This document shows positions 57,948-64,000 of a DNA stretch of 64,000 nucleotides, in pieces. Within the stretch, counting starts at the first letter, position 1; each line of letters begins with the position of its first letter. The notes beneath the pieces were generated by a model. It searched no databases. It was not told the origin of the DNA and was given only the letters and a program-made list of their open reading frames with translations. Source of the stretch: Leptolyngbya sp. NIES-3755 (GTDB lineage: Bacteria > Cyanobacteriota > Cyanobacteriia > Leptolyngbyales > Leptolyngbyaceae); assembly GCA_001548435.1 (NCBI GenBank), contig AP017308.1, positions 2,799,030-2,863,029 of the forward strand, given 5' to 3'. Position numbers and translations under genes: made by a program.

Positions 57948-59072
57948 ATGGCATCCATTATATTGGACAATCTGACAAAGTATTTTGGTCAGAATACAGC
58001 CGTCGATCGCATTAATCTAGATGTGGCAGATGGCGAATTGATTGCGCTTTTGGGTCCTTCAGGCTGTGGGAAAACGACGACTTTGCGAATGTTAGCGGGG
58101 TTTGTTTCTCCCGATGACGGTCAAATTCTGGTCGATGGTCGGGCGATTTCAACCAAGCAGCGAACCGTTCCACCAGAGCGGCGCAACATGTCGATGATCT
58201 TCCAAAGCTATGCGATTTGGTCACATAAGACTGTGTTTGAGAATGTTGCGTTTGGCTTAGAACTCCGCCAGATGAGCCGTTCAGAAATTCGATCGAGAGT
58301 GACAAGAGCATTGGAAATCACCCATCTGCATCGACTTGCCGATCGCTATCCCTCTCAACTTTCGGGCGGACAACAACAACGAGTTGCCTTAGCTCGTGCG
58401 ATCGTCATTGAGCCGCAAATTCTCTTACTCGATGAACCATTGTCGAACTTAGATGCTAGTCTGCGTGATGAAATGCGGAATGAGATTCGCCGAATTCACG
58501 ATGAAACAGGACTAACAACCGTTTACGTAACACACGATCAAGGAGAAGCATTAGTGTTATCCGATCGCATTGTGGTCATGTCCGACGGTCGAATTCAGCA
58601 AGCGGGAACCCCTGAAGAGATTTACGAAACGCCTGCGACTGAATTTGTAGCGCGGTTCATTGGTCGGTGTAATGTTCTGCCTGGAACTTTAACGCGATCG
58701 CAGCAAGTGGATGTGGGTGGCGTACTGATTGCAGCGGACGATCTAGCTCCAGGAGTGAGCCTTGGTCAAGATGTTGCGCTTAGTGTTCGTCCACACTCGA
58801 TCGTCCTTGATCCGATCGAGTGTCCGACCGATGATGTTCGGATGAATTGCTTTATTGCATCGGTTGAACATCAAGATTACTTTGGTGAATTCCGAGAGTA
58901 TCAAGTTCGGATTGCAAATAGTAATGTGTGTTTGAGTGTGGTCACTTCTCCGAATGTGCGGCATCGAGTGGGCGATCAGATGTATCTTTCCATTCCGAAA
59001 GAGCATTGTCGCGTTGTGCCCTTGACGGCTCGATCGACAGAACGATCGAATCAATTCGCGATGACTGCCTAA
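57948..59072 (+). CDS. ABC transporter ATP-binding protein (FbpC/PotA-type)
   Basis: 374 residues. Walker A GPSGCGKTT, Q-loop MIFQSYAIWSHKT, signature LSGGQQQR, Walker B ILLLDEPLSNLD, H-loop VYVTHDQGEA. A C-terminal TOBE domain (about 275-355) follows. The Q-loop style fits Fe3+ or 2-aminoethylphosphonate importers. The stop codon directly abuts a MITE-like element. Confidence 0.9.
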   Translation: MASIILDNLTKYFGQNTAVDRINLDVADGELIALLGPSGCGKTTTLRMLAGFVSPDDGQILVDGRAISTKQRTVPPERRNMSMIFQSYAIWSHKTVFENVAFGLELRQMSRSEIRSRVTRALEITHLHRLADRYPSQLSGGQQQRVALARAIVIEPQILLLDEPLSNLDASLRDEMRNEIRRIHDETGLTTVYVTHDQGEALVLSDRIVVMSDGRIQQAGTPEEIYETPATEFVARFIGRCNVLPGTLTRSQQVDVGGVLIAADDLAPGVSLGQDVALSVRPHSIVLDPIECPTDDVRMNCFIASVEHQDYFGEFREYQVRIANSNVCLSVVTSPNVRHRVGDQMYLSIPKEHCRVVPLTARSTERSNQFAMTA

Positions 59073-59074
59073 AA

Positions 59075-59282
59075 GGGTGTTTGAAGAGTATCGTTCGTTG
59101 CACTCACCCGCTCCGGAATAGAATTCGGGGCTAACTGAACAAAGTCCACTGAAGGGGACTGAAAGCCAACCCGAATCAATTCTTCAGTCCTGTTCACAGG
59201 ACTTCGCACCATTAGCCCCGAATTCCATTCCGGGGCGGACGAGAACGAAGCGAGAAGATTTCTGATACTTTTCAAACATCCT
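59075..59282 (+). mobile_element. MITE-like palindromic element, copy A (about 208 bp)
   Basis: The ends GGGTGTTTGAAGAGTATC (59075-59092) and GATACTTTTCAAACATCCTC (59264-59283) are imperfect inverted repeats. Inside is a second large palindrome, CCGGAATAGAATTCGGGGCTAA to TTAGCCCCGAATTCCATTCCGG (about 59112-59234). It encloses two short hairpins built on AGTCC/GGACT. CTAAAAG occurs at both outer edges (59069-59075 and 59083-59089 plus 200), a possible target duplication. There is no ORF. It starts 3 bp after the ABC ATPase stop. Confidence 0.75.
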
Positions 59283-59326
59283 CTAAAAGAGCGCTAAATT
59301 TGATCAACCTCACCTTTACCGATTCC

Positions 59327-60820
59327 ATGAACATCTTTGATCTACTCACTGGAGAGAACGATCGATCTGCGTTAGTGGCTCCCGATCGCGCCACTCTCAC
59401 GCATCAACAACTGAGAGACAATCTCAATCACTTAGTCAGCCAGTTGCAGCAATTCGGCTTACAGTCTGGAGATCGAATTGCGATCGCAATGCCAAATAGT
59501 TCTGCAATGGTTCTAACGTTCCTTGCGGCGACCTTGTGCGCGACGGCTGCCCCACTCAATCCAAAGTACAAAACAGAAGAATTCGCTTTCTACTACGAAG
59601 ACACGCAAGCGAAAGCCTTAATTACTTTGCCGGGTACAGTTGAAGATGCGATCGCGGCGGCTCCTTCAGAGATGCAATTGATTCATGCGATCGTCCAATC
59701 AGATGGAACGCTAACCTTTGAACTGGTACGAGGAGAAGCGACTCCAATCACTTCACCCTCACCCACCGAAGATGATATCGCGATGATTCTGCATACAAGC
59801 GGAACGACCAGCCGTCCAAAACGAGTTCCCATTCGACATCGCAATCTAATTGCTTCGGCTCGAAACATCATTGAAGCCTACCAACTCACCTCCGAAGATA
59901 CAACGCTCTGTTTGATGCCGTTGTTCCACATTCATGGCTTAGTCGGATGTCTATTATCAACCTTAGCTTCGGGGGGAACTCTCGTCTGTCCAAATGGCTT
60001 CAATGCTTTGGAATTTTGGCAATTGGTCGATCGCTTTCGTCCGACTTGGTATTCTGCTGCGCCAACGATGCACCAGATGATTTTGGCTCGTGCAAGTCGC
60101 AACTTGGAGATTGTGAAAGCAAATCCGTTTCGATTTATTCGATCGAGTAGTGCGCCCTTGCCTCCAGTCATCATTGAACAGTTAGAAGCAACCTTGAACG
60201 CCCCAGTGCTAGAGTCTTACAGCATGACTGAAGCGGCTCACTTGATGAGTACGAATCCATTACCACCAAACGTTCGTAAACCAGGAACCGTTGGAATTGG
60301 GTATGGAGTAGCAGTTGGAATCATGGATGAAGCTGGAACTTTGTTATCTCAAGGCTCACTCGGTGAAGTGGTGGTGAAAGGTGCAAATGTGATTGATGGG
60401 TATGAGAACAATCCGACTGCGAATGCGACCGCGTTTGTGGATGGATGGTTTCGGACTGGCGATCAAGGCACGATCGACAATGATGGTTATTTGCGATTAA
60501 CAGGTCGCATCAAAGAACTAATCAATCGTGGCGGTGAAAAGATTTCGCCTTTGGAAGTCGATGATATTTTGCTGCGTCATCCTGCGGTCTCGGAAGCATT
60601 GGCGTTTGCTGTGCCACATAAGTCGCTGGGAGAAGACATTCATGCAGCGGTTGTCCTGAAAGGCGATGTGACTGAGAAAGAATTGAAGGGACATTGTGCG
60701 GAAAGCTTGAGTGATTTCAAAGTGCCGAATCAGATTCATATTCTCGATCAGCTTCCGCGTGGTGCTACGGGAAAACTTCAGCGATTATCGATGGCGAAAC
60801 TGCTTAAAATTGAAGCTTAA
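59327..60820 (+). CDS. Acyl-CoA synthetase, oxalate-CoA ligase (AAE3/Pcs60)-like
   Basis: 497 residues from ATG 59327; a TTG at 59300 would add 9. The ANL-superfamily motifs are MILHTSGTTSRPKRVP (P-loop), YSMTEAAH, FRTGDQGTIDNDGYL and GRIKELINRGGEKISPLEVD, with the catalytic lysine in RGATGKLQR. The middle segment with ATP and carboxylate contacts (LMPLFHIHGLVG, TWYSAAPTMHQMIL) resembles plant AAE3 oxalyl-CoA synthetase more than fatty acid ligases. Substrate by similarity only. panE-like gene follows 14 bp downstream. Confidence 0.82.
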   Translation: MNIFDLLTGENDRSALVAPDRATLTHQQLRDNLNHLVSQLQQFGLQSGDRIAIAMPNSSAMVLTFLAATLCATAAPLNPKYKTEEFAFYYEDTQAKALITLPGTVEDAIAAAPSEMQLIHAIVQSDGTLTFELVRGEATPITSPSPTEDDIAMILHTSGTTSRPKRVPIRHRNLIASARNIIEAYQLTSEDTTLCLMPLFHIHGLVGCLLSTLASGGTLVCPNGFNALEFWQLVDRFRPTWYSAAPTMHQMILARASRNLEIVKANPFRFIRSSSAPLPPVIIEQLEATLNAPVLESYSMTEAAHLMSTNPLPPNVRKPGTVGIGYGVAVGIMDEAGTLLSQGSLGEVVVKGANVIDGYENNPTANATAFVDGWFRTGDQGTIDNDGYLRLTGRIKELINRGGEKISPLEVDDILLRHPAVSEALAFAVPHKSLGEDIHAAVVLKGDVTEKELKGHCAESLSDFKVPNQIHILDQLPRGATGKLQRLSMAKLLKIEA

Positions 60821-60834
60821 TTTGGATTGTGGTG

Positions 60835-61806
60835 ATGAAAATTTGCATTGTTGGAGCAGGTGCGATCGGGGGATTTCTCGGAGCCAAATTAGCGATCGCA
60901 GGCGAACAAGTCACGTTAATCGCTCGCGGGAACCATCTCAAAGCGATTCAACAACACGGCTTAAAGTTGATCATGGCAGATGGTTCGACTGAAGTTGCAA
61001 CTCCCACGCTGGCAACGGATGATTTTGATGCAGTAGAGCCGCAAGACGTGGTGATTCTCGCATTAAAAGCGCAAAGTGTTCCCGCGATCGCGCCTCTACT
61101 TCCGAAGCTGTATCACTCAGAAACAATAGTGATGACGGCTCAAAATGGGATTCCTTGGTGGTACTTTCGCAAACATGGCGGAACTTATGAAGGGACTCGC
61201 ATTCAAGCCGTTGATTCAGAGGGAATTGTCGAGGCGAACATTGGAGCCGATCGCGTCATTGGAACAGTCGTTTATCCAGCAGCGGAGATTGTTCAACCGG
61301 GTGTGATTCAACAGATCGAAGGCGATCGCTTTACGCTGGGAGAAATCGATGGCAGCAAGAGCGATCGACTCCAATCCTTAGCTCAAGTGCTTAAGCAAGC
61401 GGGATTCAAAGCACCGATTCGGACTCAGATTCGGACAGAAATTTGGGTGAAGCTTTGGGGAAATTTGGCATTCAATCCGATTAGTGCATTGACTCGTGCA
61501 ACATTGGTCGAGATTTGTCAAAATCCGTTAACGCGAGATCTAGCCCGTCAAATGATGTTAGAAGCTCAAGCGATCGCACATCATTTGGGAATTGAATTTG
61601 GTATTACCCTAGAGCAGCGAATTGATGGAGCAGAAAAGGTTGGCGCTCATAAAACTTCGATGTTGCAGGACATTGAAGCAGGTCGATCAACAGAAGTAGA
61701 TGCGATCGTGGGAGCAGTGGCGGAATTGGGACGATTAACACAAGTTCCTACGCCGCACATTGATGCGATTTATGCTGCAACGAAGTTACTAGAGCAGACG
61801 CTATAG
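60835..61806 (+). CDS. panE: 2-dehydropantoate 2-reductase (ketopantoate reductase) family protein
   Basis: 323 residues. KICIVGAGAIGGFLGAKLA is the Rossmann motif, LALKAQ continues it, and the catalytic lysine lies in EIWVKLWGNLAFNPISALT; AGRSTEVDAIVG is the substrate-side motif. It reduces ketopantoate to pantoate in coenzyme A synthesis, or acts on a related 2-oxoacid. It forms a pair with the CoA ligase. The stop abuts a MITE-like element. Confidence 0.88.
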   Translation: MKICIVGAGAIGGFLGAKLAIAGEQVTLIARGNHLKAIQQHGLKLIMADGSTEVATPTLATDDFDAVEPQDVVILALKAQSVPAIAPLLPKLYHSETIVMTAQNGIPWWYFRKHGGTYEGTRIQAVDSEGIVEANIGADRVIGTVVYPAAEIVQPGVIQQIEGDRFTLGEIDGSKSDRLQSLAQVLKQAGFKAPIRTQIRTEIWVKLWGNLAFNPISALTRATLVEICQNPLTRDLARQMMLEAQAIAHHLGIEFGITLEQRIDGAEKVGAHKTSMLQDIEAGRSTEVDAIVGAVAELGRLTQVPTPHIDAIYAATKLLEQTL

Positions 61807-62010
61807 GTGCTTTAAACGTATAAGAACTGTCTCGCTTCGTTCGATTCCGCCCCGGAATAAAATTCGGGGCTAACAGTGCGAAGTCCTTTTCAAAGGACTA
61901 AAGAGCTTATTCTAATTGGCTTTCAGTCCCTTTAGTGGACTTCATTCCGTTAGCCCCGATTTCAATCCGGGGCGGGTGAATGCGGTGAACGACACCCTAA
62001 AAACACCCTC
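61807..62010 (-). mobile_element. MITE-like palindromic element, copy B (about 204 bp), inverted to copy A
   Basis: The reverse complement of this interval matches copy A along most of its length: the CGGGGCTAAC...GTTAGCCCCG palindrome, the GACTGAAAGCCAA spacer, ACGAAGCGAGA on one flank and GGGTGTTT at the outer end. The outer inverted repeats are more worn than in copy A. It fills the whole gap between the panE stop and the kinase stop, and probably ends transcription from both sides. Confidence 0.72.
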
Positions 62011-64000
62011 TTAGCAAAGACAGCCCGAAATCGAATCAATCAACGATCGTGGATCAAACGGTTTCGTTAAATGATTGGCAAATCCAGCTTGACGCGATCG
62101 CGCTTGGTTCATTTCGCCTGCATACGCGGTAAGAGCAATCACGGGAAAGTTCTTGCCTTGAGATCGAAGTTGCTTTAACAATTCATAGCCATCGCAATCG
62201 GGCATCCCAATATCACTGACTAGCACATCGATCGATTTATCTTTGAGAACTTGAAGAACCTCGATCGCGGATGCAGCACAAGTGACGATCGCGCCTTCTT
62301 GCTCCAAAATGAACTGTACTAACTCACGCGCATCTTTCTCATCATCGACAACTAGAATCTGTTTGCCTCTGAGCGAAATTGATTGTTCAGGCAGATCAAC
62401 CGAAGGAGCGATCGTATGAGCCGATTGATTCAAAGGTAATCGAACCGTAAACGTTGCACCTTGTTCTTCTCCAGGACTGTCTGCGGTGATGGTTCCACCA
62501 TGTAATTCGACTAATTGACGAGCGATCGCTAACCCCAATCCTAAACCGCCAAACTGTCGAGTCGTAGAAGAATCCGCCTGCTGGAATCGCTCAAACACTT
62601 GCGGTAAAAATTCAGCACTAATCCCTTTTCCACTATCAATCACTTGAACTTCAGCCTGAGAATCAGCAGCAGATAATCGAACTTTAACTTGTCCCTGATT
62701 GGGCGTGAATTTCACTGCATTCGTGAGCAAATTCCAAACCACTTGCTGTAATCGTCCAGCATCACCGATCACTGTTCCAATCGGCTCTAGTACGGTTTCA
62801 ATCTGAATCGATTTCGCTTCGGCTGCGAGTCGGATTGTGTCGATCGCAGATTCGATCACCGTTTCTAAGTTCACTGGAGCCGCATCAAGTTTGAGCTTAC
62901 CTCTGAGAATGCGTGAAACATCGAGCAAATCATCAATTAATTGCGTTTGCAGTTGAGCATTGCGCTCGATTGTGTGAAAGGCTTGCTGCATTCGATCCGC
63001 ATCGAGTCTGCCAGCTTGCAAAAGTCGAATCCAGCCGAGGATTGGATTCAGTGGAGTTCTCAGTTCGTGGGATAGCACTGCGAGAAATTCATCTTTGATC
63101 TGATTTGCTTTTTCTGCTTCTTCGCGGGCAGTTTGTTCTCGCAATAATAGCTGTTCACGTTCTGCTTCAGCCGCTTTTCGATCATCAATATCCGTATGCG
63201 TTCCGAGCATTCTCAACGGTTGCCCTTCACTGTCCCACGCGGCGATTCTACCCAGTGAGAGAATCCATTTCCAATTGCCCGATCGAGTCCGCTGACGAAA
63301 TTCAACCCGGTATTCACTCGTTTTGCCTGTAATGTAATCGAGATAGGTCTGACCGACTCTTTCCCAATCATCAGGATGGAGTCGATCGTGCCATGCTGCA
63401 TTTGTTTCGACAAACGTTTCAGGATCATAGCCCAGCATCTGAGCATATTCGGGCGACACGATCGCATCTCCAGTTTGCACATTCAAGTCATACAATCCTT
63501 GATTTGCAGCGACCAGTGCAAGCCGTAATCGCTCTTCACTTTCACTCAGCTTTGCTTCGGACTGTTTTCGACTGGTAATTTCTTGTACAACTGCATTGAT
63601 TCCAATAATCTGTCCAGTGGCATCTCTCAACGGAAACCAGTTCCCAATCCAAGTTTGCTTAATTCCTGGTTGTGCTACCGTTTCACCACTAATTTCAAGA
63701 TTCAAAAGCGGTTCACCCGCTGCCAATAAGCGATGGAATAACGGTTCTACTTCATCTGCCAAATTAGGAACAATCTCGCGAACCGTTCGCCCAATATGAT
63801 CATCTAAAGACCGTCCGTTAATTTCTGCGAGTTGCTGATTGATCCGAACAAAGCGCAAATCAAGATCAAATACAGCTAATCCAATCGGAGCCGTATTGTA
63901 GATTGCTTCAATTTCTGCAAATTGTCGATTAAGAGTCGCTTCAGCAGTTTTACGATCGCTGATATCGCGAAAGAAAAGATTCAAGCCATCATTCGACGGA
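62011..64000 (-). CDS. Multi-PAS hybrid sensor histidine kinase / response regulator, partial
   Basis: The frame is open to the right edge (PSNDGLNLFFRDISDRK), so the true start lies outside; the TTG at 63984 is only an internal candidate. Visible order: end of a PAS domain, two further PAS domains, HisKA (SHELRTPLNPILGW), HATPase (NLLTNAVKFTPNQG, DSGKGI, FGGLGLGLAIA), then a receiver (ILVVDDEKDARE, LVSDIGMPDCDG, HLTKPFDP). It is closely similar to the kinase at 51.7 kb, with which it flanks the iron-transporter and ligase genes. Confidence 0.9.
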   Translation of the reverse strand, partial: PSNDGLNLFFRDISDRKTAEATLNRQFAEIEAIYNTAPIGLAVFDLDLRFVRINQQLAEINGRSLDDHIGRTVREIVPNLADEVEPLFHRLLAAGEPLLNLEISGETVAQPGIKQTWIGNWFPLRDATGQIIGINAVVQEITSRKQSEAKLSESEERLRLALVAANQGLYDLNVQTGDAIVSPEYAQMLGYDPETFVETNAAWHDRLHPDDWERVGQTYLDYITGKTSEYRVEFRQRTRSGNWKWILSLGRIAAWDSEGQPLRMLGTHTDIDDRKAAEAEREQLLLREQTAREEAEKANQIKDEFLAVLSHELRTPLNPILGWIRLLQAGRLDADRMQQAFHTIERNAQLQTQLIDDLLDVSRILRGKLKLDAAPVNLETVIESAIDTIRLAAEAKSIQIETVLEPIGTVIGDAGRLQQVVWNLLTNAVKFTPNQGQVKVRLSAADSQAEVQVIDSGKGISAEFLPQVFERFQQADSSTTRQFGGLGLGLAIARQLVELHGGTITADSPGEEQGATFTVRLPLNQSAHTIAPSVDLPEQSISLRGKQILVVDDEKDARELVQFILEQEGAIVTCAASAIEVLQVLKDKSIDVLVSDIGMPDCDGYELLKQLRSQGKNFPVIALTAYAGEMNQARSRQAGFANHLTKPFDPRSLIDSISGCLC

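Follow-up and report, generated by a model that had tools for sequence, protein, structure and literature searches.

In a stretch of 64,000 nucleotides from the genome of Leptolyngbya sp. NIES-3755 (contig AP017308.1, positions 2,799,030 to 2,863,029 of the forward strand; hereafter the window), two inverted repeat elements, A and B, bracket an acyl-CoA ligase-like gene and the panE gene. We consider it likely that A and B are independent insertions of a chimeric non-autonomous element, which combines ends of the IS5 type (IS: insertion sequence) with a core that resembles a REPIN (REP doublet forming hairpins; REP: repetitive extragenic palindrome) and is tied to subclass 1.2 of the TnpA_Y1 transposases, and that the gene pair in between is not cargo. 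Three observations carry this reading: the ends and the TNA target duplication are of the IS5 type, the core is conserved by compensatory change, and units of the core lie beside Y1 genes that bear the signature of the subclass. Below, 'own genome' refers to the genome that holds the window and 'relatives' to related cyanobacterial genomes, among them those coded G003, G006, G016 and G038.

Element A (59073..59283, forward strand) measures 211 bp and was delimited on the basis of its terminal repeats, the alignment of the copies in the own genome and an empty site in G003. It opens with AAGGGTGTTTGAAGAGTAT (59073..59091, forward strand, 2 mismatches to the consensus) and closes with the reverse complement of GAGGATGTTTGAAAAGTAT (59265..59283, reverse strand, 0 mismatches). 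The target duplication TAA lies on both sides (59070..59072 and 59284..59286, forward strand), the left copy being the stop codon of an ABC transporter ATPase gene. Element B (61807..62010, reverse strand, around 204 bp) is of the same kind and inverted relative to A; its end at 62010 could be read as GAGGGTGTTTTTAGGGTGT and the opposite end is decayed. The TTA beside it (62011..62013, reverse strand; TAA on the other strand) is the stop codon of a kinase gene and probably a target duplication, with the matching copy at the far end of B unreadable. Both elements contain two inverted half-units, each with two hairpins. Those of A were located at 59085..59164 (reverse strand; half-unit model R2, E 3.7e-27) and 59182..59261 (forward strand; E 4.7e-28), and those of B at 61824..61903 (reverse strand; E 7.3e-27) and 61921..61998 (forward strand; E 1.4e-23); all four were in the training set of the model. 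Several duplications and end boundaries were determined by eye or with a simple script, and the copies studied were the best-scoring ones.

An earlier note on this DNA had described A and B as MITE-like (MITE: miniature inverted-repeat transposable element), many-armed copies that match when one is inverted and that share an inner palindrome. This description holds at every point. A and inverted B are 80% identical over 202 aligned bases, their 104-nt arms are 82% complementary, terminal repeats are present and the palindrome GGGGCTAA/TTAGCCCC occurs in both. The pattern GGGGCTAAN{2,12}AGTCC was found at 4 sites in the window against 0.01 expected in shuffles, and the folding energy of the B strand (-101.4 kcal/mol) is far below that of shuffles (-57.7 +/- 4.6). 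A and B are genuine, far above chance. Each element is a chimera of IS5-family ends and a core of two inverted two-hairpin units.

The assignment of the ends is based on the relatives. The IS5-type terminal pattern (at most 1 mismatch) was present in 14 of 35 genomes, the own genome included, and G006 contained 70 sites against 0 in a backward control. G006 also has a 915-bp IS with ends GAGGGTGTTTGAAAAGAC and GAGGGTGTTTTAAAAGTT and TNA duplications, of which 7 copies encode the same 263-aa protein; this transposase passes the IS5-family model NF033580 (209.7 bits, cut-off 110). In G016, a 918-bp relative of this IS ends in two identical 18-base repeats and is flanked by TTA on either side. 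Through these two elements the ends are common to autonomous IS, as is characteristic of IS5-family MITEs. The same holds for the 3-bp TNA duplication, which we recognized by eye around four complete copies in the own genome: A (TAA) and those at 5533 kb (TAA), 4297 kb and 1409 kb (both TTA). Among the 40 element loci fetched from the relatives, 20 had a readable end pair, and identical TNA was found on both sides in 10 of these 20. The earlier note had named a matching transposase with the same ends, of the IS200/IS605 type or other, as something to look for. IS5-type enzymes with these ends are present in G006 and G016, and none was detected in the own genome, where the proteins closest to that of G006 are only 36-37% identical to it and have other ends. 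An IS200/IS605-type partner fits the core, given the Y1 link described below, but the ends match IS5-type elements instead. A 271-aa IS5-type element of the own genome was considered as partner and rejected because its ends differ. Four end pairs in G006, 55 or 82 bp apart, represent very short IS5-ended elements (C1:978304-978358, 184043-184124, 1334863-1334944 and 3664188-3664269), and a lone terminal-repeat-like site with 2 mismatches lies around 1 kb past the end of the window (C1:2864040-2864059).

The earlier note had read the arrangement as a composite unit that could move or invert the ligase/panE pair, and had proposed a genome-wide search for the element and a comparison with empty sites. 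Searching the own genome at the DNA level returned 22 matches, which correspond to 12 places with A and B included; besides complete copies there are halves and fragments. The spread over 12 places counts against a composite unit. A composite transposon would carry its duplication only outside the whole unit, whereas TAA was found at both ends of A itself. In G003, where the order transporter-ligase-panE-kinase is kept at a DNA identity of 80-87%, site A has no insert and site B holds around 190 bases of an unrelated hairpin repeat. Model R2 recovered no core units in the 12-kb syntenic stretch of G003, and in this one relative the unit was neither missing as a block nor moved. Moreover, A is 80% identical to B versus 83% to copies in G003 and G006, so that A and B are not each other's nearest copies. 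The own TAA pair of A, the empty site A and other repeat at B in G003, and these identities together argue that A and B arrived separately. Both observations named beforehand as contradicting a composite unit were thus made. The inverted arrangement and the short distance do speak for such a unit, and homologous inversion between A and B is conceivable, but the distance is weak evidence (P = 0.058 for 2 of 12 randomly placed copies within 2750 bp). Considering the duplication of A and the collinear G003 region, we regard a composite unit that inverts or carries the gene pair as extremely improbable. Going by G003, the single relative available for this site, the empty site A would be the ancestral state. 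When 58 genomes (own included) were searched for panE, 12 gave matches; G003 alone has a close homologue (95%), and G038, which is of the same class, has a match of 54%. The repeat that replaces B in G003 (L124 4793-4986) is of the type CCTCTAAATCCCCC ... GGGGGATTTAGGGGGC.

The genes in between would then be bystanders. They are the acyl-CoA ligase-like gene (59300..60820, forward strand; the best family is FadD7-like, with a score below its cut-off) and the 2-dehydropantoate 2-reductase gene panE (60829..61806, forward strand; NF005089, above cut-off). The ABC transporter ATPase gene (57948..59072, forward strand) ends on A and a hybrid histidine kinase gene (62011..63984, reverse strand) ends on B. 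The remark in the earlier note that each copy sits within a few bases of a stop codon proved exact at both elements. The first base of A is directly 3' of the ATPase stop TAA, and B spans the whole gap from the stop of panE (61804-61806) to that of the kinase gene, which lies on the opposite strand. This spacing follows from the fact that the TAA duplication of A is itself a stop codon and that B abuts one. The stop codons TAA and TGA both fit TNA, and in G003 the ATPase stop at the site without insert is TGA. From these two sites we infer that TNA-targeted insertion at stop codons leaves the proteins intact. From the ATPase stop to the likely ligase ATG (59072-59327) the window has 254 nt, as against 45 nt in G003, and A may have broken up an operon-like arrangement.

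The structure of the core was analyzed using alignment A1 (43 cores), in which folding into local hairpins was compared with a long fold-back against 500 shuffles. Four local hairpins paired 97.3% of 1114 cells (shuffles 93.3) and showed 29 cells that were changed on both sides versus 5.0 in shuffles; on all five measures 0 of 500 shuffles scored as high. The long fold-back paired 93.8% (shuffles 92.7), with pair types at chance (23 vs 22.3) and pairs with changes on both sides near chance (136 of 500 shuffles). At columns 33/47/143/159, both local pairs were kept and both long-range pairs failed in 8 of 43 rows, 4 rows lost one local pair while one long-range pair held, and no row lost both local pairs while keeping both long-range pairs. 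As a selected structure, the long fold-back was therefore judged weaker than the local hairpins. Accordingly, we regard each half as a two-hairpin unit with a linker ending in TTAG, which is the conserved foot of the unit. In a set of 44 halves from near and distant genomes, changes on both sides were found in 13 of 14 consensus pairs.

Units of this kind also lie beside Y1 transposase genes. In the own genome a half-core (~479140-479218) lies directly 3' of the stop of a Y1 transposase gene (gene match 479288-479632). A Y1_Tnp search of ten genomes yielded 60 rows, of which 52, representing 50 loci, were examined with model R2; some of these genomes had also supplied training units for the model, though none came from these loci. 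The first 30 loci gave 13 hits, all in L390, L392, L406, L407 and L413, and core model R1 marked the same five. The next 20 loci were taken from the rows still left, with an eye to the likely type. Among them, L414, L416, L417 and L418 gave strong hits (E up to 1.2e-8); those of L424 (E 7e-4) and L415 (E 0.041) were weak, the former at more than 1 kb from its gene and the latter adjoining it. By model, units thus flank the Y1 gene in 9 of the 50 loci, as they do in REP/REPIN systems. As a control, units were found in only 2 of 69 DDE transposase loci (L201 and L216). A unit oriented like the gene begins within around 10 nt of the gene's stop at 7 of the 9 loci. A unit in the opposite orientation is also present 5' of the gene in L390, L416 and L417; with units on both sides, the core looks like a gene-less form of the Y1 element. 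Three half-units stand in tandem, around 154 bp apart, ahead of the Y1 gene in L406 (921-1305).

The signature Y---Q--HH was found in 11 of the 50 Y1 loci, i.e. the nine with units plus L391 and L415, and none of the 39 loci without the signature had a unit within 500 bp. L391 and L415, which make up a sister branch, are bracketed by inverted repeats that, judged by eye, follow the same plan (hairpin, linker, TAG, hairpin) in another sequence; the repeats are located at 1406-1450 and 1897-2100 in L391, where they take the form of a 67-bp tandem array, and at 1426-1477, 1907-1962 and 1989-2040 in L415. A tree was built from 39 rows, leaving out the short piece L392 and ten loci that had no profile match. 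In this tree the eight flanked rows make up one side of a branch (as low a value was reached in 0 of 500 shuffles), and adding L391 and L415 gives a group with support 100/99. Four proteins of the signature type scored 64-101 bits on the NCBIfam IS200/IS605 model NF033573 (cut-off 55) and 20-24 bits on the REP-associated model NF047646, which is below its cut-off of 80 and indicates that they are not TnpA-REP (class 2). Among solved structures, TnpA of ISHp608 comes nearest (2a6m, E 3.1e-9).

The signature is that of subclass 1.2 of TnpA_Y1, which is defined by it (Quentin et al. 2018, PMC6006769). According to that paper, the subclass occurs chiefly in Cyanobacteria and Bacteroidetes, at low copy number and generally without IS200-type terminal structures; it is close to IS200 yet without IS properties, and the table of the paper has 'no' in the column where other subclasses have a REP type, with no DNA partner given. 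The proteins found here agree with that account in the signature, in length (around 148 aa) and in their cyanobacterial hosts, and differ in that units flank the gene.

One may argue that A and B are plain IS5-type MITEs, of which the core merely resembles repeats beside Y1 genes without a tie to Y1. The ends, the duplications and the intact IS5-type partners are demonstrated, and in repeat-rich genomes high-copy repeats adjoin many genes by chance. Nevertheless, the units track the signature (9 of 11 loci with it versus 0 of 39 without it), they begin in gene orientation close to the Y1 stop, and the own genome has a unit behind a Y1 gene although it contains the element at only 12 places. 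Taken together, we find the absence of a Y1 tie unlikely. A and B are like IS5-family MITEs (ends GAGGRTGTTTGAAAAGTAT, TNA duplication) in terminal repeats, TNA duplication, a size of around 200-211 bp, the lack of a transposase gene and autonomous partners in relatives; they differ in that their core is common to elements with entirely other ends.

In the relatives, the core was also found within around six other kinds of ends, each with its own duplication length. These are CTGATTGACTGACAAA, with exact 9-bp duplications (L257, L285, L288, L292, L295, L296 and L302); CTGAGATCTTGCACC, with a 4-bp duplication (L266 and L331-L333); TAGGGCGTGYTTTAAAAC, with the duplication CTAG (L340 and L343); CATTGGTGTCAACTTAA, with a 9-bp duplication (L311); GTGTACACACAA, with the duplication TA (L268 and L317); and GTGAATTCGATGA, with a 9-bp duplication in one copy (L324). 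A seventh kind (L265) is doubtful. The script used to find ends gave no candidates at 6 of 18 loci in the first set and 27 of 60 in the second, and several other candidates were weak. An autonomous IS could be tied to the ends in only two types, the IS5 type and CTGAGATCTTGCACC, which also bounds a 391-aa IS4/IS701-like element in the own genome, the protein of which scored below all family cut-offs.

The core itself is widespread. Among 146 genomes of the class, counting the own genome, 52 gave a match to model R1 (E up to 0.001), and the matches cover 40 of 86 genera; the copy numbers are floors as at most 18 candidates were scored per genome. Two stretches of viral contigs matched and neither was confirmed. 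Plasmid records gave 129 Y1 matches, all below 60% identity, and none was cyanobacterial by name among the 40 matches listed. One copy in the own genome (C1:3550480-3550690; L025 within 1027-2457) lies in frame inside menE, in a 476-aa frame with other men genes adjoining. G006 has a half-unit at the equivalent place in menE (L347 2520-2620), and no unit was found at that place in menE of six other members of the genus. The menE copy is reminiscent of the Rickettsia palindromic elements, which are palindromic elements in frame within genes (PMC10969869); these belong to another phylum, and only one or two in-frame cases were seen here.

The earlier note had also proposed that the elements act as bidirectional terminators, and in a broader sense the core could be a host-useful RNA or terminator module that was spread by insertion at gene ends. 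Its hairpins would form in RNA too, and 7 of the 20 end-paired copies in the relatives lie at most 30 nt from a gene end; this count has no chance control and we draw no conclusion from it. The terminator function found no support: a consensus scan of 58900-62200 for a GC-rich stem followed by a T run gave no site in A or B and a single one inside panE (shuffles 3.2). Likewise, an Rfam search of the A/B region returned one chance-level match (E 1.9), far from any family threshold, and that of seven other core-bearing loci only a tRNA. Given that, in addition, the two strands score almost equally and a copy is in frame inside menE, such a module seems very unlikely to us.

The core can also be compared with REP/REPIN systems and their TnpA-REP (RAYT) enzymes. 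The likeness lies in the inverted pairs of hairpin units, the many copies and the units adjoining a Y1 gene. The core differs in having two hairpins per unit and a foot TTAG instead of GT[AG]G, and the Y1 proteins differ in that they reach 20-24 bits against a REP_Tyr_transpos cut-off of 80. Membership of the GTAG-tagged REPs was considered and dropped in view of the conserved foot TTAG. The GTAG-15 REP dimers of Anabaena variabilis (PMC3733652) are similar as REP dimers nested in a longer palindrome in a cyanobacterium, but as far as printed in the accessible part of that paper their sequences differ from the core, and no DDE ends are described there. The Nezha MITE (Zhou 2008, as known from citations) and the MITEs of Anabaena sp. 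90 (PMC3542288) are alike as cyanobacterial MITEs. In the open-access literature, which lacks most subscription papers, we found no account of the core or of its link to subclass 1.2.

Several points weigh against the chimeric reading. The movement is inferred from sequence and none was observed. In the own genome the Y1 gene contains a TAG, and no IS5-type transposase is more than 37% identical to that of G006, so that either system may be inactive there. Since the Y1 gene of G006 contains a TGA, the Y1 system may be dead in both. The far end of B is decayed and its duplication unreadable. The long fold-back exceeded shuffles on 2 of the 5 measures besides cells paired (18 cells changed on both sides vs 10.1, 5 of 500 shuffles; covariation score, 4 of 500 shuffles). 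L406 and L414 depart from the orientation that the unit mostly has behind the gene, the branch of flanked genes has modest support (77/69) with one origin in 78% of the bootstrap trees, and the unit model missed L391 (no hit) and L415 (E 0.041), which count only via repeats judged by eye.

With these points taken into account, the most likely explanation is a REPIN-like system of which the core also appears to travel in the ends of DDE transposons. An IS5-type transposase would have brought the whole element to TNA sites, which in this case are stop codons, and the reading frames would have survived. The Y1 enzyme would recognize the hairpin units as single-stranded DNA and would spread the core, or once have spread it, as proposed for TnpA-REP enzymes and REPINs. 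Several unrelated DDE elements would have come to enclose cores within their ends. More tentatively, and with a little less than even confidence, we propose the core as DNA partner of subclass 1.2, an orphan so far, and elements like A and B as two-system mobile DNAs, with a HuH/Y1 single-strand core and interchangeable DDE double-strand ends. A switching of carriers by the cores would explain the occurrence of one core in around seven kinds of ends across cyanobacteria.

The window provides a case of how a TNA-targeting element can hit stop codons and leave the proteins unharmed. In a wider sense, the half-units constitute a concrete candidate substrate for subclass 1.2, which makes the function of these enzymes directly testable. 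If it is true that several unrelated DDE elements carry one core, a module can be common to mobile DNAs of different transposase classes, and one system may account for many of the palindromic repeats of cyanobacterial genomes.

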